45,937 bases of DNA from Gammaproteobacteria bacterium Ga0074134 (GTDB lineage Bacteria > Pseudomonadota > Gammaproteobacteria > Ga0077554 > Ga007554), in NCBI GenBank assembly GCA_001464965.1, contig LNEJ01000050.1, positions 1 through 45,937 of the forward strand. Direction: 5' to 3'. The notes under the pieces were generated by a model. The model was given only the letters and a program-made list of their open reading frames with translations. It was not told the DNA's origin and did no database searches. Each line of letters starts with the position of its first letter. The first letter of the stretch is position 1. The translations under genes and the position numbers were made by a program. Positions 1,380-18,716 of this stretch are shown here, one piece after another.

Positions 1380-2336
1380 TCAATCCGCAGGTTGGGCCAG
1401 TAAATCCTTGCAAGCCTGGACTGGCCTGGTGCGCTTTGCCATGGCCTGGCACTCCTTGCGCAGGACTTCCCGTGCTTTTTTACCCAGTTCGGCTTGTTCG
1501 GCCTCCAGTTGCGCGTTGAGGTTTTCGACTTTTACCGATTCGATCAGATGGCGGAAAGCGGCTTCGAATCGTGCGTGGGCTTCGGGGTATTGAAGGGAAG
1601 TTGGTGTGGCCCCAAGTCGCAACACCATGGTATAGCCCGAATCTTTTATTGGAAGGACCCAGTACTGATAAGGCCCCGTCGAATAGTTGCTGGGCGCCAA
1701 GGCAACCATTTGCACCGTCCAGTCATTATCATTGACCCGGATGGTAGACCACTGACCTGTCGGGTTCGATTCGGACAAGTACTGTTTCCAGTCGTCAACT
1801 GTCCGGTACCGAAAATAAAGCATAAGCGCATGATTTGTCACGACCCACGTTTGATCGCAAACTGGCTGCGGTTCGTATTCAGCTACTCTTTCGCCAATTT
1901 TCTTTAGCCTGTTAGGATCATAACGGCCATCATCATCTAGTCCAAGCGAAGCAGGATCATATATGTTGGACACAACTTTATAGCGCCGCACATAGGGGTC
2001 GAAGTCAAAGGGCTTCTCAGGTGTTGAGCTGGTTTGCCAGGTTTTTCCATTTTTCTCGTAGATGTCGGGTACATAAAAAAGCTCTCCCCTTAATCCTCTG
2101 TTGACCCCCACAGTTGGCAGGTGTCCATACTTGCAGGTTGCAGCACTCGTTGGCCATGTGTGGCTAATACGGTATTTGTCCAGGAATTTGTACTGGTAAG
2201 TGTCGTAAACGTTGGTCAGCGGCACATCCAGCGCACCCGGTTTCAGGTAGCGATCATCGTTGCGCCTGATCATTTCCTCCACGTCGCACGCGCTCAGCGT
2301 GAAGGCCATCAAAAGACAGGAGGCCAATACTTTCAT
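1380..2336 (-). CDS. Predicted lipoprotein translationally coupled to the FhaB-like exoprotein
   Basis: This 318-residue protein has a signal MKVLASCLLMAFTLSAC whose lipobox Cys is residue 17. The mature part is polar and aromatic-rich, and the last ~60 residues are charged and probably coiled coil (LNAQLEAEQAELGKKAREVL). The ATG overlaps the exoprotein stop by 4 nt, so the two are made together. This is where an immunity gene sits in contact-dependent inhibition loci. The exoprotein appears to end in a lipase-like domain, which would act on membranes, so an envelope lipoprotein is a reasonable antagonist. No homologous family was recognised; the immunity role is a hypothesis. Confidence 0.8.
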   Translation of the reverse strand: MKVLASCLLMAFTLSACDVEEMIRRNDDRYLKPGALDVPLTNVYDTYQYKFLDKYRISHTWPTSAATCKYGHLPTVGVNRGLRGELFYVPDIYEKNGKTWQTSSTPEKPFDFDPYVRRYKVVSNIYDPASLGLDDDGRYDPNRLKKIGERVAEYEPQPVCDQTWVVTNHALMLYFRYRTVDDWKQYLSESNPTGQWSTIRVNDNDWTVQMVALAPSNYSTGPYQYWVLPIKDSGYTMVLRLGATPTSLQYPEAHARFEAAFRHLIESVKVENLNAQLEAEQAELGKKAREVLRKECQAMAKRTRPVQACKDLLAQPAD

Positions 2337-5300
2337 TTCACTGCCTCTTGTTGATCGTGATTGATCGAATTGTTTTCCATGAGCTTCCCACCTTTATATT
2401 GAATCAGCATGGCATTCCCCTCCGGCGTGCCCTGTGGGCCCCCGGGCACTGGGATTTCGACCTGCGTGCAGCCCGCGCCGCCCGTGCCATAGCAACTGTG
2501 CATACTGTTGTTGGTGTCATATACCTGCCACAGGCCTTTGAGTGTCCATACGCCGGGGTTGCCGCCCGACAGGTTCGAGACTGAAACCGGGTCATTGCTG
2601 AAATAGTTGTATGTGATATTGTCTTTCTTAGTAGGATCCTGAATTATTTTGAACGCAGAGTTAGTATAACTCTGCACATCGGCCGCCCCACCCACACCGC
2701 GCACCGTCAGACTGGGATTGGTGTAGGTGGTGCCGTTCTCATCCGGGCGGTTGCCCAGGATGGTGGATGCGCTCTCCTGCACCAGTGTGCCCCGGCTGTG
2801 GCCCAGCGATGTGGTGGCTTGCTGTCCCCGGCGAGTTATCAGCGCGGCATAGGTTTCCGCTCCGTTAGTGTAGCCCAGGAAATTGGCCAAGCCATAATCC
2901 AGCGAATTGATTATCTTCTCGTAGGCCACACCCAACAACTCTGAAATAGTGTTATTGGCCGGTGCGATGTGCATCAGGTAGATGGTGGTTGGTTTCTTCC
3001 CATCTACCAGTTCTGCATTCTGATACGCCAACTCTACAGCCCGTTGCTCGTCGTTCAGTATGCCATTGACAACCAGCACCGTGCCGGGGTCGGCCTTCGC
3101 TATCTCCTCCGGTGTGGCTGGCGAGCCCTTGACGAGTTTTAGGTTGCTCAGGCAGGCATTCTCTTCGACAGGGCACTCCACTTTGATGGGTTTCGGCTTA
3201 TCCTGAAACCTGTTCCGGTACATTTCGTCGGTGAACACGGTGACGACCTTGAACGCCTCTTGCTTGATCGTCTGCTCCGTTTCCACTGTCTGCTTCATCG
3301 CCTGCACATCCAACCGCTGCGCCGCCACCTGAGCATTGGCCGTGTCGTGATTGAGGTTGGCCACGGTTTGTTCGGCGGTTTGGCCGGTGCGTTGCTGCTG
3401 GGCGGCTTCGTCGGTGATGATCACCGTGCCTGCGCTGACGGCGCTGCGGGTTTGCCCGCTGGAACTGTCCGACGCGCTGCCGTTGTTCATTGTGTTGCCA
3501 ACAACTGCTTTGGTGGCACCGTATTTGCCTTGGGTAAACATATCACTGCTCAAGACAATACCATTACTCTTGGCGCTTGCATCCGCCTTGTTCTGGATGT
3601 CGCTTTGGGTCAGCGTGCCGGTGGTCAGACTGTTCCTGCCGTCTTCAATCGCCTTGTCCGTGCTGGCAATTACTGCGCCTTTGAGATCAGTATTGCCTTT
3701 CACATCAATCTGGAAGCCACCGTCACCGGCCTTGATGCCGGATTGCTCGATGACGCTGGCAAAATCGCCGGTGATCTTCTGCTGGCTGGCGTTGAAGCTG
3801 CCGCTGGCCTTGCCGTAACCGACCGACACGCTGCCGCCGATACTTTGCTGTTTGCTGTCGTATTTGCTGGTGTCTTGCAGGCTTTCGATATTGAGATTGC
3901 CGCCGATAGTGGCGGTGACCTGAGCGCCGCTGGCGACGGCGCCTTTGAGAGTGGTGTTGCCGCCGGAGTCCAGCGTCAGCGTGTTGCCCGCCTCGACGCG
4001 AGTATTCGTCCAGACCACATCGCTGCCGTCGGCCTTGCCGCGCCCGCCACTGGCGCTGGCGGTCACCATCAGGCCATCGGTGCCCAAGCTCACGCCCAGA
4101 CTGGCGCTGGAATTTTTATTGGTGCTGTGCTGCTCGGCCGTGCTCTTGGCGGCCAGGAGGTTGACATCACTGTCGGCTTTGAGTGTCACAGCGTTGCCTG
4201 CCGTGACGCGGCTGCCTTGTATTGTCAGATCGCTCTCGCTCCCTGCGCCCGTGGCCTGGATAGTGACACTGCCACCGGCGGCGATGGTCGACCCGGCGGC
4301 GGTGCTGCTGGCTTGAGTGCTATTGCTTTGGTTCTGCGAGCCGCCCACCGAGAGGCTGACGTTGACTCCTCCCGCTTGGGCAGGATTCCGGGTGATCGCG
4401 TTATACGCATTGTAGCCTGCCAGTCCCGTCGTAGCGAGCGCCAGGGCTTGTATCCTGCGGTCACTGGTCTGGCCGGCGGCGTTGGCCATCTGTTGCCCGG
4501 TCTGGAGGGCGGAGATCACCGGGCTGGTGAGAGCGAGCGTCAGGCCCGACTGTTCAAATTTCGTTTCCTGTGTGCCCTGGCCGGTGTTTTGCGCCTCGAT
4601 GATGTCCACCTTCTGTGCCTGGATGGTGATGTCGCCTTGCGGGGCGACGACGGTGCTGCCGGTCTGCTGGTAGGTGTTTCCGGCGATGAGGCTGACATTG
4701 CCGCCGAGGCTGCCCACGGTACTGCCGATCTGGAGGGTATGGGTGGCCCGATCATTTTGCTGTTGCTGCTGCGTGCCCAGGGTGAGGCTGAGGCCGCCGC
4801 CGGAGAACAGGCCGTCGGTGGTTTGCTGCTGGGCCGCAGATGTGCGCGTGGTCTGCTGCGCGGGAGCGAGAGTGAGGTCGCGGCCCGCGTCGATGATGAG
4901 TCCGGTATCGGCGACGGCCTGGCTGGCGGTGAGGGTGACATCGCGTCCGGCCTGGATCAGTACCGTGTTGCCGGTGACGGCGCTACCGGTCACCTGGGTG
5001 GCGGTGGTGTCCGCGCTCTGGGTGGTGGTGACGCTCTGCAAGAGGTTGCTGCTGGTGTCATGGCTTTCGGCCACGGCGCGGTATGCGGTGGTGGCGTTTT
5101 GCAGGGTGATGTCGTTGCGAGCCAGCAGGCTGGCCTGGCCGGTGCCGGCGCTGAGGGTGGCGCCGGTGACGGTGACGGTGAGGTTGCCGGTGGCGCCGTT
5201 ATTACCCGGGCCGGTGGCCGTGACGGTGAGGTTGTCACCCGCAATGAGATTGCCGCCCGCGAGGGTTTCGGTGTCTTGCGCGATGCGGTTGTAGTTGTCG

Positions 5301-8300
5301 TGGCCGACGGTCTGAATATCGTTGCTCTGGCGGTTTTTGACTGAGGCGATGCGGACGTTCGCGCCCTGGAGGAGGATATCCGCGCCCATCGCGAGATTGG
5401 CGCCGTTGAGGGTGGCATCGTTGCCTGCCACCAGCGCGGCGTTGCGGCCGGCGGTGAAGGTGGTCACCTGCTGGGTGGTAGTTTCTTCCGTGATGTAGCC
5501 GCTGCGGCCCTCAACGTTGTGCCCTGAAGTATCCTGGCTCTGGATCTGGTAGCGACTGGCCACGGCGGCGGCGGTGAGGTCGCGCCCGGCGGTGGCGGTG
5601 AGATCGGCGGCGGCGCTGACGGCGCTGCCCAAGGCGAGCAGATCACGCCCGGCATCGAGCGACACGCTGCCGCCCTGCACGATAGCCAGGCGATCGAGCG
5701 CTGTACGGGTGCTGCTGCCTTGCGCATTGGCGGTATCGAGGGTGTTGGTTTGTAGCACCAGGTCGCGCCCCGCCTGGAGCGTGACCTGGCTATCGAGGCC
5801 CAGGCCCTCGATGAGACCGGAGAGATTTTTCAGGTCGTTGCGGGCGCGGGCGACGATGTTCTGGCCGCTGATGCGCCCGCCCTGGTTGATCAGGTCGTCG
5901 CCGACGATCAGGGTAGCGCTGCTGCGCGCGGCGATGGTGCCGGAATTGTTCAGTGCGCCCTTGGTCTGGATGAAGACATTCTCACCGGCAATCAGCGATC
6001 CGTTGCTGTGCAGGTCGCCGCCCTCGGGGCGGCGCAGGTAGACCTGGGGTACGAGCACCTGGGTGGTGCTGCCATCGGGCAGGGTGACGGTGCGGGTGGT
6101 GAGCCAGACGATGTCGGTGGTAAGTATCGCCATCTGTTCACCCGTCAGCGCCACGCCAGGAGTGAGCTGGTAGTCGCGGGCGAAGGCGACACCCGCTTCC
6201 ATCAGGGCCTGGTATTGCTGTTCGCTGTTGCGGTAGCCGGTGAGATAGCGCTGGCTGGTCAGTGCGAGGATCTGGCCATTGACGAGCTGCTGTTCGTAAA
6301 AACCGTCGCCGTAGCGTTTGAGGTGCCGTTCTGGGTCGAGGTTGAGCTGAGTGAAGAAATAATCCGATCCCACGAAGTTGCGGTTGCGGATGAAACGCGG
6401 ATCGGTTTCGACCAGGTAATTGGCCTCCGGCTCGGGATGGATGACGAACAGGCGGCTGCCGGGTACGGCCAGGCGCGGTGGAGTGGTGAGTATCACCTCG
6501 CGCGCGCGTTCACCGCTACTGGCGGCGGCTACGCTTTGGATGAACAGCGAGACATAGTCGTTGGTGTCCAATGTGGCGCTGATGCCTTGTGGCGCGGCGC
6601 TGCGGGCATTGCCTGAGGCAGTCGTGGCGGCGCCTGCCGCGACGTTGGATGGGGCGGTGGCGGAGGGATCATGGGGCTTGTCTGCGGTGAGGTTGATGTG
6701 TTCTTCGACAGTATGGTCCTGCAGGGGTTTGCTGTCGTTTTTTGGGGCCGGAGAGTAGTTCACTGCGTCGCCCCACTCTCGGCAGTGTTTGCCACCAAAC
6801 ATGCCGCAGGACTTGACCTCGGTGAACTGAGAGGTGCCGCTGTAGGTGGTAATGTCCAGCAATGTGGTGCCGACGTTACTGAGTCCAGCATTGAAGAGCT
6901 TAAAGAGTTGACGGCCTGCCACGATCTGGCTATCGAGATTGTCGGCGCGCTCTCCGGTGAGGGTGATGTTGCCGCCCGAGAGGATCTGTGCGGGGGCGGT
7001 GCTGGCGACTTCCTCATGGGTGCGGGTCGAGGTGACGCGGTACCAGGTGTAGTCTTCAAAGCTGTCCAGCCGGTTGTCTTCATTGACCTCGGCATTGTAG
7101 GCGTTGACCTTGACCGTTAATTGGTCGAGGGCGCTCTGGTAGCCGAGGTTCCATGCCGCGTAATCACGCTTCCATTGCGTGCAGGCTGGGCTGCTAAAAA
7201 TGTCACAGCTGCTGCTGGGTGGGGCAGGTGGGGCGCTTACTGGGGTTACGCCAAAACGCGCGAACTCGGGTGCGTCCCAGGCATAATTGATTTGCACAGG
7301 GCCGAAAATGCCGCCCTCGCGCACCGGAGCGACGGGGCTGCGCTGGCCGTACTTGTCGGGATGTACCTGACAACTCACTGTATCCTGGCCGCCGCCGACG
7401 CCGTAGCACTGGGATGCCAAATATTTGGTGAGGGAGCCGTTGGGCTGGATTTTATCCTCCTGCTTTGAAGGGTCCGTTACTGCCGTAATGCGCAAGAAAT
7501 CGTTACGGTTGGTGAGGGTGGTGGCGCCGATATACAGGTTGCCGAGCGCCTCGATATGGCTCGATCCGTTGAGCAGGCTGTTGCTCCATCCCGTTACATT
7601 GCCGTTGCTGTCCAGTGCGCCACCGATGGTCATGTCCCCCAGGCTGAAGAGTGTCCCGCCGTAGGTGTTATTGATCGTCCTGGCGCCTATCAACAGCAGA
7701 TTGCGCGCGTTAATAATGCCAGGGCCGGAGTTGTTGAGGGTATCGCCCGCGATGAGCAGATCGTCGCCATAGATACGTGCGGTGTTGTTGATGATGCCCG
7801 CCCGGATGCCGGTAAGCGTGCCGTCGATGAGGCCGTTTGCGGTGTTGGTGAGTGTGCCGCCGACGTTGAGCTGTGTGAGATAGGCGCTGATCTCGCCGCT
7901 GTTGGTGAGATTGCCGGTAGTGGTGGCCGTTAGCGTGTCGTTGGCGATGAGCGCGCCGCTGTTGGTGATGCTGTTGGCATTGATGGTGAGATCTTTGCGT
8001 GCCGAGAGCAGGCCGGTGTTGATGTAATCGCCCTGGATATTCAAGGTCACGTCATTGTTCGATGCGATTGTGCCGCTTGGCGCCTGGCTGCGGGTAGTCA
8101 CCGTGACGCGCTCGTCACCCACCAGGGTGCCGCGGGTATTGTTCAGAGTGGCGGCAGTGACGGTCAGGTTGCGCCCGGCACTCATTGTGCCCTGGGTATT
8201 GTTCAGGGCGTCGGTGGTAATCGTGGCGTCATTGGTCGCGCTCAGGGCGCCGCCAGCGTTGGCAAACGCCAATGTGCTGACCATGATTGCGGCGGCGTCG

Positions 8301-11300
8301 ATTCGCCCTGCCGCGCCATTTGCGGCGCTGTTGTCGAGGGTGGCGGCGTCGAGCGTGATGTTGCCGTTGGCGACGATGCGCCCGCCGCGATTGTCTATGG
8401 TCTGGCTGGCGCGCAGGCTGCCATTCCCCAGTGTATTGATTGCGCCGCCGTTGTTAAGAATGTTTGCTGCATTGATAGCGACGTTGCCATTGCTGACGAT
8501 CTGGCCCGCCACACCGTCCAGAACACGGTTGTCCAGATCACCGCTGATATCCAAGGTCTGACCGCCGTTGCTGGCGAGATAGCCCGATGGGTTGTATAGT
8601 GCGCCACTCTGGATATGCAATGCACCACCTGCAACGATACCACCGTTGTTGCCGCTGTGAGTGACAGTCAAGTTCTGCCCGTGGGTGTCGATGCGGGTGT
8701 CGCCCACCGACATCAGCAATCCCTGGTCGTTGTTGAGCGCCTGGGTATCGGCGCTGAGCTTGCCTCCGGCAATCACCGTGCCGCCGGTGTTGTCGAGGCT
8801 GCCTGTGACGAGCATTATGTCCGTGCCGCTGATGAGGCCAGTTTGATTCGCGGTATCTCCGGCGACAATCGTGGTGTTACCTGCGGCTTGCAGTTTGCCG
8901 CTTTGGTTGTCTAGCGTCTGACTGTTGCTATTGATGCTCAGATTGCCTTGCAGGCTGGCTACCGTGCCATAGCTATTGGTGAAAGGTGCCGTAGTCAGTG
9001 CGATATCGTCGTTAGCGATGATTCGGCCACCGCTGTTGTCCAGCGACTGGCCTTGGGTGTCGAGGCTCAGGGATGAACCGGAGAGTAGGCTGCCCCACTT
9101 GTTGCGGATCTCGCCGTTCTGAAGGGTGAGGCTCCGGCCGCCACTCAGTTGCCCTATTTCGTTAATGAGTAATCCCGTTCCCAGGGTTACCTGCGTGTCC
9201 TGCTTGGCGTGTATCAATCCCCAATTGTTTTTGAGCGATGTTCCCGTTAAGGAAACCTGGCCATCGCTGATTATCAATCCAGAGTTGTCGATAGCGCCGC
9301 TGCTGTTGATGGTCACCTGGTTGTCAGCCGAAATGACGCCAAAGGAGTTGGTCAGATCGCCAGTGGTAAGGGTGATCGTGTCCTTCGCCGTGATCGTGCC
9401 AGTGCGATTGCCGGTGCCATTGTTCAGGCGTTGGTGCTGTGTGTCGATGGTGAGCACTGCGCCCGATGATATTTCACCTGACTCATTGTCGAAAGCCTTG
9501 CTAACGATCCGGGTGCCGGTAGCCGAGGTTATGATACCCATACGGTTGCTGGCTTGGCCCGCGTTTATCGAGACGGCCCCTTGTGACGAAGCAATGACGG
9601 GCAGGGCAGAGGGGGCGTAGTACACCTCTGGCATGGTGTAGAATTCCTCGGCGTTGTTGGCGAGCTTGCCAGTGGTGAGGGAGATCCCGTCTTTTGCCAG
9701 CACCTTGCCGCCGGTATTGTCAAAGCTCCCCGATTGCAGCGTCAGTGCGCCTGAACTTGTTTGAATCACACCGTTGAGGTTGTCTACGCTGCCCTGCGTG
9801 GCGATGTTCAGGCTATTGGCCGCATCGATTATCCCTTGCTGGTTGACGATCATAGCGGCGTTGATGGAAAGACCTGCATCGGACACCAGCACGCCCTCGG
9901 TGTTGTCGAGCGCATTGCCATGGGTGTGCAGGGCAAGGCCGGTCTTGCCGGAGATTACGCTATTCTGGTTGCTGATAATGCCGGTGGTGGTAATCCGCGT
10001 TGCCTGATTGCTGATGATTTGAGCATAGTCATCGTTGATCAAACTCTCTGCGGCGAGTGTGACGTTGCCGCTACCGAGCAGGCTGCCGCCGCGGTTGTCG
10101 ATGGCGCCCGTGACGGCGGCATCCAGCGCGCCGCCTGCCAGGATCGTACCGCCTTGGTTGGCGATAGACGCACCGCTCAACATCACCGATTGCCCGGCCT
10201 GCCAGAGTCCCGCCGTGTTGCTGATCCGCCCGGCGGCGTGCAGATTGCCTGCGGCATGGAGTTGGGTGTTGAAGGCGGTGAGGTTGCCGGAGGGTGTTGC
10301 ATCAAGGTCGAGATTGCGGTCGGTGATGATTTGCGTGTCGTTGAGATGGATGGCCTGCGCCCGTACGCTCAGATCATCCGCCGCCAGCAGTGTGCCCTGG
10401 TTGGCGGTGAAGCTCGCCGCACGCAGGTCGAGCCGCCCTGCGCTGTAGATCGTGCCGCTGTTGCTGGCGGCCCCCGTCGTGGCGATATCCAGCGTGCCGG
10501 TGCTACGCTGGATGAGTTCTCCGCTGTTGTCAAGCCGCGCTGCGCTGATCGCCAATTGACCTTGCGCATCCACGATGCCTGGCTGGATCACACTGCCACT
10601 GCTGGTGATCCGTGTATTCCCCTTGCTCACTGTCTGCCCAGAAAGCGCCATGGTGCCCGTGCTGGTGAGCTGAATATCTTGTTTCGCGTAGCTGTCTTTG
10701 AGTGTGAGGTCGCCGTTAGCGGAGAGTATCAGGTTGCCCTGCAGGGCGGCCACACGTCCTTGGCTGTTGACACCCAGGCCCTGTTCGGTGGCTACCAGAT
10801 AAACCTGATTGGCATACATGCCGCCCACGTCCTTGATGTCGATGGCAAAGCGGGGCGCCGCTCCATTGCCCGTCAGGGTGGTTGCCTGCAAGGTGGCGTA
10901 CAGCACCTGGTTGGCCCCCGCGATGGCGTTCAGGTTTTTGGCCCAGACCTCGCCTTCTATCACCATGCCGCGTGCAATCAGGTCGAGCTGTTCGAGGCTG
11001 GTGGCCGTCAGTCCCCGGTTGCCGATGGTTAGCTGCCCTTGACGCACATCGAATCCGGTGAGGCTGCCGCCCTCGCCGAAGCGGGGCGTACCGGTGGTGA
11101 GGCTCGCCCGCCCCGTATTGAGAAAACCGCAGCCGTCGCAGGTGATACCGTTGGGATTGGCGATCACGATGTCTGCTCGCCGGCCAGCGATTTCTATTGT
11201 TCCCAGTAACTGCGAAGGGTTGGCTGTTACAATTTCGTTGAGGATGATGCGCGCCGCTGTCGGGCCTATTTGCAGGTTCCCGCCGATCCAGCCACCGAGC

Positions 11301-11617
11301 TGTGTTTGGGTCGCCCCTGGGCTGTTGTTGAGAATCAGGCCATTCGGATTGACGTTGAACTGGTCGTACTGATTGTGTGACACGCCCGCGCTGCTGGGCG
11401 GGGCGATGTGAACGAGAGGCACGCCATTTGCTGCGGCATCCATGATCGGGCGTTGCCCGGCGGGTGCAGTGCTGGCCGGAACGATAGGAAGGGGGGCGCC
11501 ATCCGCGGCCTGTGCAGAGGTGGACAGCATTGCGAACTCGCCTTGCCACAGATACATCACCAGTACTGCCTTCGCAACGCGCCGTACCCAAGGTGCCTGA
11601 TGCCCCGTCATGTTCAT
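2333..11617 (-). CDS. FhaB/CdiA-like two-partner secretion exoprotein with C-terminal alpha/beta-hydrolase domain
   Basis: Giant secreted protein of about 3,094 residues. It has a signal sequence with probable cleavage after STSAQA (residue ~37) and a TPS domain (~60-300) with NPNG at 90-93 and NPNGITCDGCG at 154. A long FHA repeat region follows (repeated 'LDNxxGxIxAxGxLxL' turns), then a non-repeat middle part (~1450-1850) and a second repeat region (~1850-2700) of the type seen before CdiA toxin tips. No VENN motif is visible. The last ~250 residues read like an alpha/beta hydrolase: VVNGI oxyanion-like loop, GHSRG nucleophile elbow (Ser2941), NDPVS (Asp3009) and MHSCY (His3040). Export should use the FhaC partner upstream. 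The start chosen is the ATG at 11617, 5 nt after GAGAG; a GTG at 11629 is possible. The hydrolase or toxin function is inferred from motifs. Confidence 0.92.
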   Translation of the reverse strand: MNMTGHQAPWVRRVAKAVLVMYLWQGEFAMLSTSAQAADGAPLPIVPASTAPAGQRPIMDAAANGVPLVHIAPPSSAGVSHNQYDQFNVNPNGLILNNSPGATQTQLGGWIGGNLQIGPTAARIILNEIVTANPSQLLGTIEIAGRRADIVIANPNGITCDGCGFLNTGRASLTTGTPRFGEGGSLTGFDVRQGQLTIGNRGLTATSLEQLDLIARGMVIEGEVWAKNLNAIAGANQVLYATLQATTLTGNGAAPRFAIDIKDVGGMYANQVYLVATEQGLGVNSQGRVAALQGNLILSANGDLTLKDSYAKQDIQLTSTGTMALSGQTVSKGNTRITSSGSVIQPGIVDAQGQLAISAARLDNSGELIQRSTGTLDIATTGAASNSGTIYSAGRLDLRAASFTANQGTLLAADDLSVRAQAIHLNDTQIITDRNLDLDATPSGNLTAFNTQLHAAGNLHAAGRISNTAGLWQAGQSVMLSGASIANQGGTILAGGALDAAVTGAIDNRGGSLLGSGNVTLAAESLINDDYAQIISNQATRITTTGIISNQNSVISGKTGLALHTHGNALDNTEGVLVSDAGLSINAAMIVNQQGIIDAANSLNIATQGSVDNLNGVIQTSSGALTLQSGSFDNTGGKVLAKDGISLTTGKLANNAEEFYTMPEVYYAPSALPVIASSQGAVSINAGQASNRMGIITSATGTRIVSKAFDNESGEISSGAVLTIDTQHQRLNNGTGNRTGTITAKDTITLTTGDLTNSFGVISADNQVTINSSGAIDNSGLIISDGQVSLTGTSLKNNWGLIHAKQDTQVTLGTGLLINEIGQLSGGRSLTLQNGEIRNKWGSLLSGSSLSLDTQGQSLDNSGGRIIANDDIALTTAPFTNSYGTVASLQGNLSINSNSQTLDNQSGKLQAAGNTTIVAGDTANQTGLISGTDIMLVTGSLDNTGGTVIAGGKLSADTQALNNDQGLLMSVGDTRIDTHGQNLTVTHSGNNGGIVAGGALHIQSGALYNPSGYLASNGGQTLDISGDLDNRVLDGVAGQIVSNGNVAINAANILNNGGAINTLGNGSLRASQTIDNRGGRIVANGNITLDAATLDNSAANGAAGRIDAAAIMVSTLAFANAGGALSATNDATITTDALNNTQGTMSAGRNLTVTAATLNNTRGTLVGDERVTVTTRSQAPSGTIASNNDVTLNIQGDYINTGLLSARKDLTINANSITNSGALIANDTLTATTTGNLTNSGEISAYLTQLNVGGTLTNTANGLIDGTLTGIRAGIINNTARIYGDDLLIAGDTLNNSGPGIINARNLLLIGARTINNTYGGTLFSLGDMTIGGALDSNGNVTGWSNSLLNGSSHIEALGNLYIGATTLTNRNDFLRITAVTDPSKQEDKIQPNGSLTKYLASQCYGVGGGQDTVSCQVHPDKYGQRSPVAPVREGGIFGPVQINYAWDAPEFARFGVTPVSAPPAPPSSSCDIFSSPACTQWKRDYAAWNLGYQSALDQLTVKVNAYNAEVNEDNRLDSFEDYTWYRVTSTRTHEEVASTAPAQILSGGNITLTGERADNLDSQIVAGRQLFKLFNAGLSNVGTTLLDITTYSGTSQFTEVKSCGMFGGKHCREWGDAVNYSPAPKNDSKPLQDHTVEEHINLTADKPHDPSATAPSNVAAGAATTASGNARSAAPQGISATLDTNDYVSLFIQSVAAASSGERAREVILTTPPRLAVPGSRLFVIHPEPEANYLVETDPRFIRNRNFVGSDYFFTQLNLDPERHLKRYGDGFYEQQLVNGQILALTSQRYLTGYRNSEQQYQALMEAGVAFARDYQLTPGVALTGEQMAILTTDIVWLTTRTVTLPDGSTTQVLVPQVYLRRPEGGDLHSNGSLIAGENVFIQTKGALNNSGTIAARSSATLIVGDDLINQGGRISGQNIVARARNDLKNLSGLIEGLGLDSQVTLQAGRDLVLQTNTLDTANAQGSSTRTALDRLAIVQGGSVSLDAGRDLLALGSAVSAAADLTATAGRDLTAAAVASRYQIQSQDTSGHNVEGRSGYITEETTTQQVTTFTAGRNAALVAGNDATLNGANLAMGADILLQGANVRIASVKNRQSNDIQTVGHDNYNRIAQDTETLAGGNLIAGDNLTVTATGPGNNGATGNLTVTVTGATLSAGTGQASLLARNDITLQNATTAYRAVAESHDTSSNLLQSVTTTQSADTTATQVTGSAVTGNTVLIQAGRDVTLTASQAVADTGLIIDAGRDLTLAPAQQTTRTSAAQQQTTDGLFSGGGLSLTLGTQQQQQNDRATHTLQIGSTVGSLGGNVSLIAGNTYQQTGSTVVAPQGDITIQAQKVDIIEAQNTGQGTQETKFEQSGLTLALTSPVISALQTGQQMANAAGQTSDRRIQALALATTGLAGYNAYNAITRNPAQAGGVNVSLSVGGSQNQSNSTQASSTAAGSTIAAGGSVTIQATGAGSESDLTIQGSRVTAGNAVTLKADSDVNLLAAKSTAEQHSTNKNSSASLGVSLGTDGLMVTASASGGRGKADGSDVVWTNTRVEAGNTLTLDSGGNTTLKGAVASGAQVTATIGGNLNIESLQDTSKYDSKQQSIGGSVSVGYGKASGSFNASQQKITGDFASVIEQSGIKAGDGGFQIDVKGNTDLKGAVIASTDKAIEDGRNSLTTGTLTQSDIQNKADASAKSNGIVLSSDMFTQGKYGATKAVVGNTMNNGSASDSSSGQTRSAVSAGTVIITDEAAQQQRTGQTAEQTVANLNHDTANAQVAAQRLDVQAMKQTVETEQTIKQEAFKVVTVFTDEMYRNRFQDKPKPIKVECPVEENACLSNLKLVKGSPATPEEIAKADPGTVLVVNGILNDEQRAVELAYQNAELVDGKKPTTIYLMHIAPANNTISELLGVAYEKIINSLDYGLANFLGYTNGAETYAALITRRGQQATTSLGHSRGTLVQESASTILGNRPDENGTTYTNPSLTVRGVGGAADVQSYTNSAFKIIQDPTKKDNITYNYFSNDPVSVSNLSGGNPGVWTLKGLWQVYDTNNSMHSCYGTGGAGCTQVEIPVPGGPQGTPEGNAMLIQYKGGKLMENNSINHDQQEAVK

Positions 11618-11643
11618 GTCAACTCTCACTCATATAATTTTTC

Positions 11644-11738: not shown

Positions 11739-13574
11739 TCAACCAAATACATACGTCACAGACAGATAAGGATTCCAGTTCCCTGTTTTAAATCCGTCCG
11801 GCTTGTAGAGGGGCGCGCCAAGCGCCGCATCGAACTGCACCGCTTTCCATTTGCCGCGCATCCCCAGCGCCGCCCCCGCCAGCCGGTTGCCTATGAGGAA
11901 GGCATCGCTCGCACCCCATACCCGTCCATGGTCGACACCAAGATAAACGGCCGTGTCCACGCCACGTATCCAGTTCACGGGCGTCGCGAGATCATTGCGA
12001 TGGAAGAAGCCGCTTTCCGCCAGCAGCACACTGTCACCATCAAAGCCGCGCACGCTCCACCGCTGGCCGATCGCAATCTGATCTGTCACCAGCGTGGTAT
12101 CGCCGGTACGCTGGCCGCGCAGTGTGGTGGTGTATTGGAAAGGCCTCCCGTTCATCGTAAATGGCTGGTTGTAGGCAGCGGCCAGCGTCCATATCGTGGG
12201 GCGCAGGGTCAGCCCTTCTTGGGCGGCGGTCGGTAAATCATCCTGGGCATCCCTCCAGGACACGCCGCGCCGATAACCGAGATCGACGTCGACGCTGGCG
12301 TTGCCGATCAGTTGTCTTGAGGTGATGCCGGTCTCCACATAAGTTGTACGCCGGCGTTGAACGATCAGCTCCACGTCATCGAGATAGCTGTTGGCACGGC
12401 GTGTGGATACTGCGGCGTATATCCCAAACTTGGCCGATGCCGTGCGAAACGCGGTGTGATGCGCCCTGGCTTCGGTGATTTCGCTCTGGCCGTGGGACAG
12501 AAAGCGGGAGGTGGTGCCTTGCACCATTTGCGCAAACCGGCTGTGGCTCCGGGTGAGCGTGAATGTGCTGTAGCCAAAGGGAATGCTGTAGCTGCCCCCC
12601 AGGCTCTGGCTTCGATGATCGGGATCGGGTTGTTCGACATTGCTGCTGGCGTTGAGGTTGAGAATGTCATTCAGGCCCAGGGGGTTGTCAAATGACGCAT
12701 AGCCGAAGAGTTGTGTGCGGCCGAGTGTTCTGCTGCCCGAGTTGTCGAGGATGACGCCCCCGCGCAACCTGTCGCTTAAGCCACCCGTCTGGCGCACCAG
12801 CGTGACGATGCTGGTGTCGGCGCGCGGCCCTGGCTCTAGCCGGGTAGTGACAGACTGGCTGGGCAGGCGCTTCATTTGTTCGAGACCTTGTTCCATATCA
12901 CGGATATTGAGTATGTCGCCCTTGCTCACTGGAAAGGCGTTCCGCCATGTGCCCCAGGCCTCATCTGCCACCATGCCGCTGTTACTGGTGCGCGGCGTGA
13001 CCATCTTCACAGCGGCGACACGGCCCACATGCAATCGCAACACGAGCTTGCCTTCCTTGAGATTCTGTTCGGGCAGCGAGACGCGGGAGGTGGCGTAGCC
13101 GAATTCGAGCAATTTCGCATTGAGTGCGGCGGCGATCTTGCGCAAGCCTTCGATACCCACGCAGCGCTGCAAAAAAGGTTGCGCGGTATTCGCCAACCAG
13201 GAGAGGGCTTGCGAACCATCGCTGGTCAGGACGATCTCGTTGATGACAAAACAAGGTGTTTCGTCAGGTAGGGCGGTGGAAAGACGCGGCGCGGCTTCGG
13301 GGGTCAAAACGTCAGCCTTGGGCCGCAACTGCTGTTGCTGCAGCCGTTCGCGCTCCTCCTGGCGCCGCAGGCCTTCTTCGGCGGTCTGCGATACGCTGGC
13401 AGGTGCGGGCGCAAGTTCCGCTGGCGCAGCTTGTGACGCGCCAGCGGCAAGCATCAGCAAGATCGCCGCAGCAAGCGGCCATAGGCGGTTGCCTTCCGGC
13501 GACGCATCAAATAGGGGATATCGAACAGTAAAACACCATCCTTGGCGCATAAAAAATGCGGCCATGGGTTTCAT
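11739..13574 (-). CDS. Two-partner secretion outer-membrane transporter (FhaC/ShlB family)
   Basis: This 611-residue protein is predicted to export the FhaB-like protein encoded just downstream. It has a signal sequence (LAAAILLMLAAGASQA) and a periplasmic linker rich in Glu, Arg and Gln (~65-90). A POTRA region (~105-260) includes CFVINEIVLTSD and GYATSRVSLPEQNLKEGKLVL. The beta-barrel carries the conserved SVRGFDGD element (VRG[F/Y] of lid loop L6) and ends in strand-forming PYLSVTYVFG. Length and order match ShlB/FhaC proteins (~550-600). The first Met lies in a long N-terminal extension; a second Met at residue 9 is possible. It is the first gene of the operon, ~120 bp before the exoprotein start. 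Confidence 0.93.
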   Translation of the reverse strand: MKPMAAFFMRQGWCFTVRYPLFDASPEGNRLWPLAAAILLMLAAGASQAAPAELAPAPASVSQTAEEGLRRQEERERLQQQQLRPKADVLTPEAAPRLSTALPDETPCFVINEIVLTSDGSQALSWLANTAQPFLQRCVGIEGLRKIAAALNAKLLEFGYATSRVSLPEQNLKEGKLVLRLHVGRVAAVKMVTPRTSNSGMVADEAWGTWRNAFPVSKGDILNIRDMEQGLEQMKRLPSQSVTTRLEPGPRADTSIVTLVRQTGGLSDRLRGGVILDNSGSRTLGRTQLFGYASFDNPLGLNDILNLNASSNVEQPDPDHRSQSLGGSYSIPFGYSTFTLTRSHSRFAQMVQGTTSRFLSHGQSEITEARAHHTAFRTASAKFGIYAAVSTRRANSYLDDVELIVQRRRTTYVETGITSRQLIGNASVDVDLGYRRGVSWRDAQDDLPTAAQEGLTLRPTIWTLAAAYNQPFTMNGRPFQYTTTLRGQRTGDTTLVTDQIAIGQRWSVRGFDGDSVLLAESGFFHRNDLATPVNWIRGVDTAVYLGVDHGRVWGASDAFLIGNRLAGAALGMRGKWKAVQFDAALGAPLYKPDGFKTGNWNPYLSVTYVFG

Positions 13575-14168: not shown

Positions 14169-15161
14169 TCAAAATACGACCGTCCATCCCTCCCGCTGGG
14201 CCTGCTCTTTGGTGTAAGCGACGCCATCGACCTTGAGGCCTTCGCGGTTCAGCAGGGTAATAATTCCTCCCTGGTTTCCGAGTTGCACGGTTTGCGGCAA
14301 GGTGACCACTTTCACTTCGCCAGGCGGCAGCGTTCCGCTGAGTGGATGTTTTTGTTTGGCTTTGTTCGCAATGGTCCAGCCAGCCAGATCAACTGTCTGG
14401 GGAGAAGTATTGAGCAGTGTCACCGTTTCCTTTTCCGGTGCCGGGCCGATAGGATTCACCAGCGCTGCAACGATGCGTACGATGCCTTGCGGTTCGGTTG
14501 GCTGGGGCGTCGGTTCGATGCGGTGGCCGGTGATGTCGTCACTGTGCCAGCCCTGCGACTGGAATTTCAGAAAGACTGCCACCCACTGATTTTGTGCCGG
14601 AAAGTGGATGAGCATCGCGCCATCCTGCCATACCCCGTCGTCTTTCTGGAACTGCGCGGAGTTGGCCTGGTTCATGTGGATGTCGTGGATGCCATTGCCG
14701 GGCTTGAAGCCGAAGATCTTGTCCTTGATCTCTTCCGGCCCCCAGCGCTCGCCAAAGGCATAGAGCAGCGCGCTTTCATCGGCCATCACACGCTGTATGT
14801 AATGGTCGATGACTTCGTTCAGGTCATTGTCCGGGCCGGGCACATTGAAAGGCAGCGGGCGCATCCGGTTGCGATCGAAGAGGTTGCCGCGGATAAAATC
14901 CAGCGCCAGACCGTTGGGTTTGCGTTCCAGCAACGTGAAGCCGAGCGGCAAGTCGAGCAAGCCCGCCGTGACGGGGTGCTGAAATGCATCGTCCACGAGA
15001 TATTCAAGCTCTGAAGGGCTTTGCTGTGATTTGACGTTGACAGCGATCCGATAGTCCGTGTCTTCGTCCACGATATGCACTTGGTAATGCGGACTCTCCC
15101 CCTGGCCTAGCCGCCGGTCTATCGCCCGTCCCTTTAAAACTCCATAGCGTTTCAATGGCAT
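14169..15161 (-). CDS. DUF2278 (YukJ-like) protein with C-terminal lamin-tail domain
   Basis: This is a 330-residue protein. The N-terminal ~220 residues match the DUF2278/YukJ family (start MPLKRYGVLKGRAIDRRLG; conserved GIHDIHMNQ and QDGAMLIHFP elements). The C-terminal ~105 residues read as an Ig-like lamin-tail domain (VALVNPIGPAPEKETVTLLN, DLAGWTIANKAKQ, PLSGTLPPGE). The start at 15161 has a strong AGGAGG site; the frame remains open to 15200 without one. The biochemical role of DUF2278 is not established. It follows the SDR gene by 58 bp and may be cotranscribed. There is no signal peptide, so it is probably cytoplasmic. Confidence 0.85.
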   Translation of the reverse strand: MPLKRYGVLKGRAIDRRLGQGESPHYQVHIVDEDTDYRIAVNVKSQQSPSELEYLVDDAFQHPVTAGLLDLPLGFTLLERKPNGLALDFIRGNLFDRNRMRPLPFNVPGPDNDLNEVIDHYIQRVMADESALLYAFGERWGPEEIKDKIFGFKPGNGIHDIHMNQANSAQFQKDDGVWQDGAMLIHFPAQNQWVAVFLKFQSQGWHSDDITGHRIEPTPQPTEPQGIVRIVAALVNPIGPAPEKETVTLLNTSPQTVDLAGWTIANKAKQKHPLSGTLPPGEVKVVTLPQTVQLGNQGGIITLLNREGLKVDGVAYTKEQAQREGWTVVF

Positions 15162-15219
15162 GGTGTTTTCCTCCTGGATTGCATGTGAACGTACCTTCAA
15201 ACGCTGTTTTTAGATCATA

Positions 15220-16159: not shown

Positions 16160-16354
16160 TTAACAAAGAACCGCGCAGGGATAGCAGTAAACCCGTCCTT
16201 TGATAGCTACGCAGCATACGGCGCTACAGACATTTCTTATAGGCAGTGCTGGTACCACCATTTTATTGCGGAAGTTAGATGTATCTCTCACCTCCTTATA
16301 TGACAAGCTAGGCGTGTGAAGCGAGGCTTCCGCAGTAAACCTTGGCATGTTCAT
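16160..16354 (-). CDS. Candidate RiPP precursor peptide, Cys-rich core
   Basis: This 64-residue peptide starts with a consensus ribosome-binding site (GAGGAGG, 7 nt before ATG 16354). The first 12 residues, MNMPRFTAEASL, match the peptide encoded upstream (MNIPGFTAQNSL); over 19 residues 11 are identical. The tails do not match, as expected for a conserved leader and variable core. The tail is hydrophobic with six Cys at 43, 47, 48, 57, 60 and 64 in a near-mirror pattern (C-x3-CC-x8-C-x2-C-x3-C). It is last in an operon with a PatA/PatG-type protease and a PatG-C protein. Its role as modified or cleaved precursor is inferred from this context. Confidence 0.7.
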   Translation of the reverse strand: MNMPRFTAEASLHTPSLSYKEVRDTSNFRNKMVVPALPIRNVCSAVCCVAIKGRVYCYPCAVLC

Positions 16355-16427
16355 GTCAAACCTCCTCTCGTTTATGATATTAACGGTGATAATGGGACGC
16401 CCTATCTCAACTTGCTGCACCCAGTTG

Positions 16428-16649
16428 CTAGACTTCCTCGCAAACGCTCTGTTGCAAGTCTGTATCTTCATAACAATGCCAGCTTTTGCATCCTTTGCCA
16501 CGGGTACATGTGGTCACCCAGGCCTCATTTTGGCGCATCTGTGGAAAAACCCGATTGCTATTTTCAGATGACATGCCCGAGCTGCTGCCTGAATATTTTG
16601 CGCTGCTCGTTTGTAAGCTGTTTTGTGCGGTAAATCCTGGAATGTTCAT
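16428..16649 (-). CDS. Candidate RiPP precursor peptide with MNIPGFTA leader
   Basis: This 73-residue peptide has an AAGGAGA ribosome-binding site 8 nt before ATG 16649. The leader MNIPGFTAQNSL is shared with the downstream peptide. The rest differs: a Ser-rich middle (AKYSGSSSGMSSENS) and a polar tail with four Cys at 48, 54, 59 and 70. Short proteins beginning MN(I/M)PGFTAEASLY are a recurring unnamed group as far as I recall. The gene begins 27 bp after the PatG-C-like gene stop and is probably in the same transcript. Function as a precursor peptide is inferred. Confidence 0.7.
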   Translation of the reverse strand: MNIPGFTAQNSLQTSSAKYSGSSSGMSSENSNRVFPQMRQNEAWVTTCTRGKGCKSWHCYEDTDLQQSVCEEV

Positions 16650-16676
16650 GTCTAATCTCCTTGTTAATTGCTGAGC

Positions 16677-17573
16677 CTATCGATCATAGTATGGCGACAT
16701 TTTGCTAACCAAAAATGGAAACTCCTCGGTCACATCCACACGTACATAATATTTCTCGGCGACATCGGTCTGCCGGTGGTTGTACGCGAAAATCACATCC
16801 ATTATCTTGCGCGTTCCACTCAGGCGGGATGGACGCACATCCACCCCGGTGAGAGCACAATCCCTTCCGAAGCATTCGGCCGCCGTGGCATAGATGGCCG
16901 GATAACGCATGACCAGATAGTTGAGTGCGCGGTGTTCATCGGTTGCCCCGGCGTTGTCCGCCATCTGCATGACTCGGTCGAACAATTCGCTGGCCATGGG
17001 TTTAAACTTCTCGGCGGTGATTTTGTCCGGCTTGGGAATCGCCTTGATCAGTGTGTTTCGGTCGAAGGAATAGATCTGGTCGAATACAGCCATTGGCACC
17101 ATCAGTCCGTTACACGCATCGGGTGGGGCAATGGGGCCGCGTAGACCGATGACAATATCCAAGTCCATTGGGCTGGGGGCAGGGCGGATAGCCTCTATCA
17201 GAAGGTCTAGATCCCCTGGGTCGCGGGGCTGCAGAATATAGGTTTCCATGCCTTGTATAATGAATACCCAGCACAGTTGCCGCGCGAGGTAGCGGTTTTC
17301 CCGTTGCGATAGCACGGAAAAAAATGCCTCTCGATCTGTTTTTCCGACTGTGTCAGAGCGGCCGGTCGCTTGCATGAATTCTTTTTCGACACTAAGGCGT
17401 GGAAAACGTGGCTCAATGCGCCCCACCGCATAGATGTATGAAAGGGGTGTGTTGGTCACTCCGCTCCCACAGGTTGAGCATGTCCCGTCATTGCTTCCCG
17501 GTGGCGCCATCATTACGGATTTATTGTCAGGAAATGCAGTAGCCGGTAGTTGTATCGCTTCATTTTGTTCCAT
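16677..17573 (-). CDS. PatG C-terminal-domain protein (stand-alone, no protease domain)
   Basis: This 298-residue protein resembles the C-terminal region of cyanobactin maturation proteases such as PatG. Recognised blocks are YIYAVGRIEPRFPRLSVEKE, RENRYLARQLCWV, ETYILQPRDP, GPIAPPDACNGLMVP, MQMADNAGATDEHRALNYL, RPSRLSGTRKI and the end RVDVTEEFPFLVSKMSPYYDR. In PatG this region follows the subtilisin domain and has no firmly assigned activity; here it is a separate gene. The N-terminus has a CSTCGSG motif, possibly metal-binding. The ribosome-binding site is GGGGGAAG before ATG 17573. It lies between the CxxC mini-protein and the peptide genes, so it is likely part of the peptide-processing machinery. 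Confidence 0.85.
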   Translation of the reverse strand: MEQNEAIQLPATAFPDNKSVMMAPPGSNDGTCSTCGSGVTNTPLSYIYAVGRIEPRFPRLSVEKEFMQATGRSDTVGKTDREAFFSVLSQRENRYLARQLCWVFIIQGMETYILQPRDPGDLDLLIEAIRPAPSPMDLDIVIGLRGPIAPPDACNGLMVPMAVFDQIYSFDRNTLIKAIPKPDKITAEKFKPMASELFDRVMQMADNAGATDEHRALNYLVMRYPAIYATAAECFGRDCALTGVDVRPSRLSGTRKIMDVIFAYNHRQTDVAEKYYVRVDVTEEFPFLVSKMSPYYDR

Positions 17574-17622: not shown

Positions 17623-17823
17623 TTACTTTGAGTGATATCCTGTAAAAGTCATCCAGCGGTTGAGGATGGCGGCGCGCCGTTGACAACCATCACAGGGTTT
17701 AATGCCAATAGCGTATGTCATGTGCTTGATGACATCTCCCAAGCCGATGTCTTCCTCTATTAGGAATCCAGGAAGACGTATCCGGTGGGGTTGGTGTCCC
17801 ATCTTTTTGCTGTCATCATTCAT
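17623..17823 (-). CDS. Conserved 66-residue CxxC-type protein of PatA/PatG-like loci
   Basis: This small protein has the core LPGFLIEEDIGLGDVIKHMT and the motif KPCDGCQRRAAILNRW. I recognise the pattern (IGLGDVIK...GI+PCxGCxxRAAxLNRW) as a recurrent small protein, but know no function. The CDGC pair could bind metal or form a disulfide. It has a strong AAGGAG site, starts 20 bp after the protease stop and is followed 49 bp later by the PatG-C-like gene, so it is a co-expressed member of the locus. Peptide binding or recognition is one possibility. Confidence 0.75.
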   Translation of the reverse strand: MNDDSKKMGHQPHRIRLPGFLIEEDIGLGDVIKHMTYAIGIKPCDGCQRRAAILNRWMTFTGYHSK

Positions 17824-17843: not shown

Positions 17844-18716
17844 TTATTGTCGCGCATGATTTCTCGCTACCGTTTGATATGCTGCCCAAGCATCCATCAT
17901 AGGCGGTACAACGCTGTTTCGTCGTGGAGAATCGCCGTGGGTGATAGCCAGTTTTATCTCCCCCGCAGTTGCAGTAGGAAACAACGACCACAGCAACGCA
18001 GTCGCGCCCGTTACAAAGGGGGTCGCAACACTTGTTCCTCCTTGTGTGAGCGTTTTACCATTGGCGCTGAGACTGGTGATTCCTTCGCCGGGCGCGCTCA
18101 ACCCCTGTTTTCCGATAGAGCTTCCCAGATTTGAGTCATTTATCGGTCTTCCCGAAAGGTCGCAGGCCGCTACAGGGATGACCCATGGATGCCGGGTTAT
18201 GGCAGAGCTGCCAAGGGTGCCTTGATTCCCTGCCGCTGCGACGACGATGACACCGCGCATTGCGGCATATGCCAGTGCATCCTCCAGTTTGCGCTCACCA
18301 TTTGGCGAGGGTTGCGCGAGGGAGGCGCTAAGGTTGATCAATCTCGCGCCAGCATCAATACACTCGATGAGCGCTGCAGCGAGTTCTTGGGGAGTCGTGC
18401 TCGGTATTTCTCCATTTACCGAGGCCGACTCTGCGAAGATGGGGCGCACCAGCAAGGTGCAGTTGGGGCAGATTGCCGGAGCGGCGGTATTCCTTTTTGC
18501 GAACAATATGCCAGCCACAAAGGTGCCATGAAAGCAGGCGAAGTTATTAGTTTGAGTGCACGTGCCGCGAAACGCGCTTGTCACACGGATATTTGCATTG
18601 GCAAGATCAGGATGATGCGTGGCGACGGGGCCGTCTATCAGGCCGATTATGATTTCAGGTCTGCCACTGCTGAGGGCCTTCAGCGCTTTCAGTTTTACCA
18701 GTTCCAGAGGATCCAT
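17844..18716 (-). CDS. PatA/PatG-type subtilisin-like serine protease
   Basis: This 290-residue S8 protease has all catalytic residues: Asp28 in GLIDGPV, His63 in FHGTFVAGIL, Ser229 in GGTSVATPFVTG, and oxyanion Asn164 in AAAGNQGT. The CPNCTLLVRPIF segment after the His motif and the short N-terminus without signal peptide or propeptide are typical of cytoplasmic cyanobactin-type maturation proteases rather than secreted subtilisins. In cyanobactin pathways PatA removes the leader and PatG cleaves and cyclises the core. Here the protease domain stands alone and the PatG-C domain is encoded separately. ATG 18716 has an AAGGA site. It is the first gene of the locus; an FNR-type site lies ~100 bp upstream. 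Confidence 0.9.
   Translation of the reverse strand: MDPLELVKLKALKALSSGRPEIIIGLIDGPVATHHPDLANANIRVTSAFRGTCTQTNNFACFHGTFVAGILFAKRNTAAPAICPNCTLLVRPIFAESASVNGEIPSTTPQELAAALIECIDAGARLINLSASLAQPSPNGERKLEDALAYAAMRGVIVVAAAGNQGTLGSSAITRHPWVIPVAACDLSGRPINDSNLGSSIGKQGLSAPGEGITSLSANGKTLTQGGTSVATPFVTGATALLWSLFPTATAGEIKLAITHGDSPRRNSVVPPMMDAWAAYQTVARNHARQ

Follow-up and report, generated by a model that had tools for sequence, protein, structure and literature searches.

A family of leader-bearing peptides with mostly even numbers of cysteines encoded beside a split PatA-type protease locus

A five-gene cluster with two leader-bearing peptides

The window (the whole 45,937 nt stretch of DNA analysed, from Gammaproteobacteria bacterium Ga0074134) carries five closely spaced genes on its minus strand, in the order S8 protease, 66-residue protein, PatG-domain protein, four-Cys peptide and six-Cys peptide. 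The gaps between them, in that order, are 20, 49, 27 and 73 bases, and the six-Cys gene is the last of the five. The features are as follows.

17844..18716, minus strand: S8 (subtilisin-type) protease, PatA-like (PF00082)
17623..17823, minus strand: 66-aa small protein with an invariant CxxC (RLPGF...GLGDVIK...KPCxGCxxRAxxLNRW)
16677..17573, minus strand: free-standing PatG domain-of-unknown-function (DUF) protein, 298 aa (PF18047 and PF18065, both over cut-off)
16657..16662, minus strand: AAGGAG ribosome-binding site of the four-Cys peptide (read from the sequence; kept in orthologues)
16428..16649, minus strand: four-Cys precursor peptide, 73 aa, same leader type (PGFTAQNSL, junction VFPQ)
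16361..16366, minus strand: AGGAGG ribosome-binding site of the six-Cys peptide (read from the sequence; kept in orthologues)
16160..16354, minus strand: six-Cys precursor peptide, 64 aa (orthologues L003:2720-2914 and L004:2725-2919)

The six-Cys ORF starts at 16354 and stops at 16160, and its product is MNMPRFTAEASLHTPSLSYKEVRDTSNFRNKMVVPALPIRNVCSAVCCVAIKGRVYCYPCAVLC. Cys residues lie at positions 43, 47, 48, 57, 60 and 64, and the spacing given for them in the first-pass annotation, C-x3-CC-x8-C-x2-C-x3-C, was exact on rechecking, as was the count of four Cys in the neighbouring peptide (16649-16428, minus strand). The label 'near-symmetric' that had been attached to the six-Cys tail is loose and was given no weight. 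The tail had also been described as free of acidic residues, which holds for residues 37-64 in the window (no Asp or Glu) but not for one orthologue, which has Asp at 52.

The peptide is laid out as a leader (residues 1-20), a fast-evolving linker (21-32), a predicted junction VVPA (33-36) and the Cys-bearing tail (37-64), which has one Ser and no Thr against six Cys. Residues 1-20 (PRFTAEASL...Y) do not differ among three genomes of the genus, residues 21-36 are variable (pN 0.11-0.21 between same-genus orthologues), and the tail is conserved, none of its six Cys being changed in the two same-genus orthologues. Codon changes over the whole gene are biased to synonymous (pS 0.16-0.25, pN 0.05-0.07, same-genus orthologues), and the Cys codons include synonymous TGC/TGT changes. 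The six-Cys ORF is a real gene under selection. A promoter scan gave nothing above shuffles, and the only plasmid match of the peptide (tblastn) was rejected as chance.

The protease locus is present in three other genomes of the genus and the six-Cys orthologue in two of them, G002 and G003. G001 lacks the orthologue; further along it carries another six-Cys peptide, unlike the first, next to what is left of a PatG domain. The machinery thus persists while its set of peptides changes. Rapid exchange of peptides is indicated by a remnant of the PatG domain with a different six-Cys peptide behind it at L027:12808-13107 and by a 28-residue leader remnant at L028:11485-11571.

Downstream of the window's peptides, an SDR oxidoreductase adjoins a gene for a DUF2278 protein with a C-terminal lamin-tail domain (14169-15200, minus strand). 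A filamentous-haemagglutinin-like ORF of 3098 aa (2333-11629, minus strand) and an adjacent ORF of 611 aa (11739-13574, minus strand) look, by eye, like a two-partner secretion pair.

The S8 protease, the PatG-domain protein and the CxxC protein

The protease has invariant residues D28, H63 and S229 at the triad positions, and no N-terminal signal peptide was seen by eye. Its best PDB matches are PatA-type proteases (4h6v, 3zxx, 4h6w and 3zxy), and it scores 121 bits to these versus 54 bits to the PatG macrocyclase. With an S8 fold, the catalytic Asp, His and Ser, and PatA as the nearest solved relative, it is a PatA-type subtilase. A match to T7SS mycosins (134 bits, cut-off 279) was set aside as general S8 resemblance, and the PADLOC matches as generic subtilase.

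The AlphaFold model of the PatG-domain protein (pLDDT 84.6) matches PDB 4uvq (Foldseek E 7.5e-15, TM 0.68/0.76), and by both sequence and fold the protein belongs to the PatG DUF superfamily. It begins with a disordered N-terminal arm containing a CxxC (window 17573-17440). Most PatG-domain proteins of the family carry such a CxxC or CxC arm, and in 35 of 74 (6.5 in shuffles) the arm repeats the [IV]xPQ...C junction of the precursors, mostly followed by CxxC or CxC, i.e., [IV]xPQ...C-x(1-2)-C (N-terminal arms, L027-L098). Since the arm repeats the junction, it could be a substrate that is cut as the precursors are, or a mimic that sits in the site they would use.

In the 66-residue protein, C44 and C47 are invariant across 56 homologues. 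It belongs to no Pfam or NCBIfam family, and its structure model gave no PDB fold match. Its 'RLPGF', with invariant P and F and a consistent place, recalls the 'PGF' of the precursors; overall, the likeness of 'LPGF' to the leader scores no better than shuffles. Together, the S8 protease, the free-standing PatG DUF and the 66-residue CxxC protein are a split PatA.

A PatA-like protease and a PatG domain adjoining a precursor peptide are also what a true cyanobactin locus would offer, with an azole-bearing, head-to-tail macrocycle as the product. This is extremely improbable here. The S8 protein is far closer to PatA-type proteases than to the PatG macrocyclase, as the bit scores above indicate, no YcaO is found in the window's genome (G000) or its relatives G002 and G003, and the peptides share no AYDG-like tail and have a leader outside the cyanobactin precursor family. 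Against the TIGR03895 whole-model cut-off of 421 bits, the S8 protease reaches 118 bits (over positions 1-179) and the PatG-domain protein 14.8 bits, and neither window peptide has a PatE-type leader (TIGR03678). Because the TIGR03895 score, the leader family and the heterocyclase were each looked for without success, the system is not classed as a cyanobactin.

Distribution of the locus

Scanning genomes with an alignment of the PatG domain gave 73 loci, most of which keep the order S8 protease, small protein and PatG-domain protein. They span about a dozen phyla of bacteria (Proteobacteria, Nitrospirota, Acidobacteriota, Planctomycetota, Chloroflexota, Cyanobacteriota, Actinomycetota, Bacteroidota and others) and one archaeon, and the order is kept from Gammaproteobacteria to Streptomyces. 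No small protein was found at the archaeal locus (Methanoperedens). Beyond these genes, none is widely recurrent at the 73 loci, and there is no recurrent tailoring enzyme, YcaO or transporter among them.

The locus tree has 23 changes of phylum label versus a minimum of 11, which suggests transfer without proving it. Copies on rhizobial and Streptomyces plasmids (L100-L103), one adjoining a Tn3 transposase and one on a conjugative Sinorhizobium plasmid, point the same way. The domain is otherwise rare, being present in 5 of 369 genomes of the class. None of 398 genomes of the phylum contains the exact string MPGFTAE, a result that shows only that the motif is not common, as the string is too strict even for the window's own peptides. 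In the annotated plasmid records, whose gene table is incomplete, the protease is entered as 'S8 family serine peptidase', the DUF protein is a 'hypothetical protein', and most of the plasmid leader peptides have no listed gene.

The leader, the junction and the tails

At least 150 small peptides, mostly unannotated, are encoded beside the same three genes. After removal of look-alikes and assignment of ORF starts by motif, the set comprised 155 peptides with the same leader (consensus P-G-F-T-A-E-A-S-L-Y, followed by a further Tyr seven residues past the Leu) and a junction near residue 35 ([VI]-x-P-[Q/A] in consensus). The strict junction [VIL]xP[QAS] is found in 106 of the 155 (12 in shuffles) and is lacking in 49, and the Cys residues fall overwhelmingly on one side of the junction (861 after, 14 before). 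The leader is in no Pfam or NCBIfam model, a search of both window peptides against NCBIfam up to E 1 gave no match, and the leader is unlike a Sec or Tat signal and has no hydrophobic stretch.

Each S8/CxxC/PatG-domain locus precedes between one and about ten peptides, whose tails are unrelated. This supports the suggestion in the first-pass annotation that two different products may share one machinery. A ribosomal precursor, a conserved leader, a variable core and a linked protease make these candidate RiPPs in the broad sense, in whose products the core would be modified and the leader gone, and the window system works in the manner of a RiPP pathway guided by a leader, with proteolysis of the cyanobactin type.

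Some tails match known families, namely phospholipase A2 (PF00068, E 2e-9), STIG1 and an MXAN_6577-like Cys-rich protein (E 3e-23), all of which are secreted disulfide-type proteins. In a Zixibacteria MAG (L089:10880-11479), a leader protein has, in place of the small Cys core, what looks by eye like the phospholipase A2 domain behind the PF00068 match. Streptomyces and relatives have leader proteins of 220-304 residues with about 40-54 Cys in CCPxGxxCC repeats (L070, L074, L076, L078-L080, L083-L085 and L087), which look granulin-like by eye. A tail of the form C-x2-C-x6-C-x9-C-x2-C-x4-C is common to a gammaproteobacterium, Nitrospira, an acidobacterium and Methanoperedens (L006:1135-1377, L039:11144-11440, L040:12696-12962 and L053:5194-5463).

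If the shared N-terminus served to export or target finished Cys-rich effectors (such as mini-proteins, phospholipases or granulin-like repeats), the S8 protease would act as its signal peptidase and there would be no further modification. The cargo runs from tails of 28 residues to Cys-rich repeats of 300 and includes a phospholipase A2 domain, a range that is usual for a secretion signal and unusual for a modified natural product, and the lack of a recurrent tailoring enzyme agrees with this. No transporter recurs at the loci, however, the leader lacks a hydrophobic stretch, and the protease, the DUF protein and the small protein have no visible signal peptide. We hold such a sorting role to be unlikely; it overlaps with the precursor reading preferred below rather than excluding it.

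Even numbers of cysteines

Among the 155 peptides, tails with an even number of Cys outnumber those with an odd number by 144 to 8. Clustering on whole peptides joined them through the leader and was replaced by clustering on tails only; with one peptide drawn from each of the 95 tail clusters, a rough stand-in for independent events, the ratio is 88 to 4 (p 1.2e-21). The even fraction is 0.96, compared with a mean of 0.50 and at most 0.66 for shuffled tails. Neighbouring proteins used as controls have no parity bias (41:31 for the S8 proteases, 38:36 for the PatG-domain proteins). At the plasmid loci, which played no part in deriving the rule, the five peptides with a leader score above 16 have 6, 6, 6, 10 and 8 tail Cys, and of two weak full-length plasmid peptides, one is even and one odd. 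Counts are spread over 2, 4, 6, 8 and 10, with six the commonest, then four and eight, and tails with zero or one Cys also occur (L043, L089).

Disulfides use Cys two at a time, while lanthionines, sactionines and azoles use them singly. Since a chemistry that uses Cys in pairs predicts parity, the even-Cys rule speaks for disulfides rather than for thioethers, azoles or metal clusters. The earlier proposal that an even Cys number suggests disulfides is therefore strongly supported at the level of the family (88:4, versus 41:31 and 38:36 in the controls). The first-pass annotation had proposed comparing Cys spacing among homologous tails, with homologues that have the same leader and no conserved Cys pattern counting against the idea. 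Comparison across homologues gave a split answer: exact spacing is genus-specific and is lost beyond the genus, while Cys richness and the even count are conserved.

Metal binding and thioether crosslinks had been offered as other uses for the Cys. Cys that hold zinc, copper or an iron-sulfur cluster, as in a metallothionein or metallophore, would fit the clustered Cys pairs, four-Cys tails such as C-x-C-x6-C-x-C, and the CxxC also present in the small protein and the DUF arm. A metal site does not need an even total, though, and the spread from 2 to 10 around a commonest value of 6 speaks against a fixed site; there are few His, and the tails with known relatives match disulfide-type domains. 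Metal binding, which the Cys counts do not suggest, is quite improbable. Dense Cys in a small leader-bearing peptide would also suit a thioether-crosslinked product (a lanthionine, or a radical-SAM sactionine or ranthipeptide), but there is no LanC-like protein (PF05147) in three genomes of the genus, no maturase recurs at the 73 loci, the tail is poor in Ser and Thr, and thioethers predict no even-Cys rule. This chemistry is very improbable, although a radical SAM maturase could be encoded elsewhere in the genome. With neither YcaO nor LanC-like protein in the three genomes, the azole and lanthionine routes lack their enzyme there.

Proposed maturation

The best explanation, to which we give slightly better than even chances, is that the peptides are precursors of disulfide-rich mini-proteins whose leader would be cut off by the PatA-like protease at [VIL]xP[QAS]. 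In the six-Cys peptide, residues 1-20 would serve as the recognition leader, 21-32 as a disposable linker and VVPA (33-36) as the cleavage junction, giving residues 37-64, LPIRNVCSAVCCVAIKGRVYCYPCAVLC, as the product. The S8 protease would take off the leader at [VIL]-x-P-[Q/A/S], assisted by the PatG-domain and CxxC proteins, most likely through binding of the leader or handling of thiols. The mature six-Cys product would be a 28-residue mini-protein with three disulfides, and the four-Cys neighbour would give a two-disulfide product from the same machinery. The genes with their order and conservation, the common leader and junction, the even-Cys rule, the kinship to PatA and to the PatG domain, and the lack of YcaO and LanC-like proteins are all observed; the cleavage site, the disulfides, export, function and the roles of the DUF and CxxC proteins we infer.

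PatA cuts after G(L/V)E(A/P)S (PMC10885120), and the putative site [VIL]-x-P-[Q/A/S] has the same shape; the window junctions MVVPA and RVFPQ fit V-x-P-[A/Q/S]. Because of this junction shape, and because the tails at a related locus (L007) start after VEPS or MTPS, the predicted cut is placed after VVPA (residue 36). Cleavage could instead occur after AEAS (residue 11), which resembles the PatA site GLEAS and is followed by conserved residues (LY...Y), but a cut there would leave the fast-evolving linker in the product.

Several points count against the best explanation. No exporter is conserved at the loci and the leader is unlike Sec or Tat signals, so that the peptides have no evident route to an oxidising compartment; 49 of the 155 lack the strict junction, and a few tails have zero or one Cys. 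In vitro, moreover, linear PatE substrates were not bound by the PatG DUF on its own (PMC4259220). A distinctly unlikely variant is that the peptide Cys are paired inside the cell by a thiol machine made up of the PatG domain and the CxxC protein and guided by the leader, a reading based on the invariant CxxC of the small protein, the CxxC/CxC arm and the junction repeat of that arm (35/74 versus 6.5).

Relation to known systems and significance

The cyanobactin PatA/PatG system (TIGR03895; PDB 4h6v, 3zxx, 4uvq) shares with the window locus a PatA-type S8 protease and a PatG DUF fold beside a leader-bearing precursor, as well as a junction shaped like the PatA site. In the window's system, by contrast, protease and DUF are encoded separately, a CxxC protein is added, and both YcaO and a macrocyclase-type partner are absent; its family differs in the Cys-rich paired cores and the spread over about a dozen phyla. 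L007, from a related gammaproteobacterium (G038), has a fused PatA/G protease of 649 aa (673 bits to TIGR03895) where the window has split genes. As in the window, small peptides follow, here two with six-Cys tails after MTPS or VEPS (2590-2745 and 3046-3204), with another leader (MNLPIQ...) that in one of them has a weak likeness to the patellamide leader (13.2 bits, cut-off 39.6). This fused locus is a possible bridge to the cyanobactins.

Actifensins, which are disulfide-rich bacterial peptides, are described as small, Cys-rich and highly variable (PMC6989792), as are the peptides here, for which disulfides are probable. We know of no PatA-like protease or PatG DUF in actifensins. In the open literature, within a limited scope in which absence is weak evidence, no description of the leader strings or of this split-PatA system was found, and nothing on PatG domains outside the cyanobactins.

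Solving the structure of the PatA/PatG DUF did not settle what it does (PMC4259220). The split PatA keeps the protease and the DUF and drops the azole and macrocycle chemistry, which makes it possible to study the DUF alongside its natural partners. Were the DUF and the CxxC protein to pair the Cys themselves, this would be a dedicated disulfide-installing RiPP system and would give the DUF its role. The family would add hundreds of Cys-paired mini-proteins, mostly unannotated and including some on rhizobial and Streptomyces plasmids, and the leader together with the junction rule provides a means of finding more such peptides.
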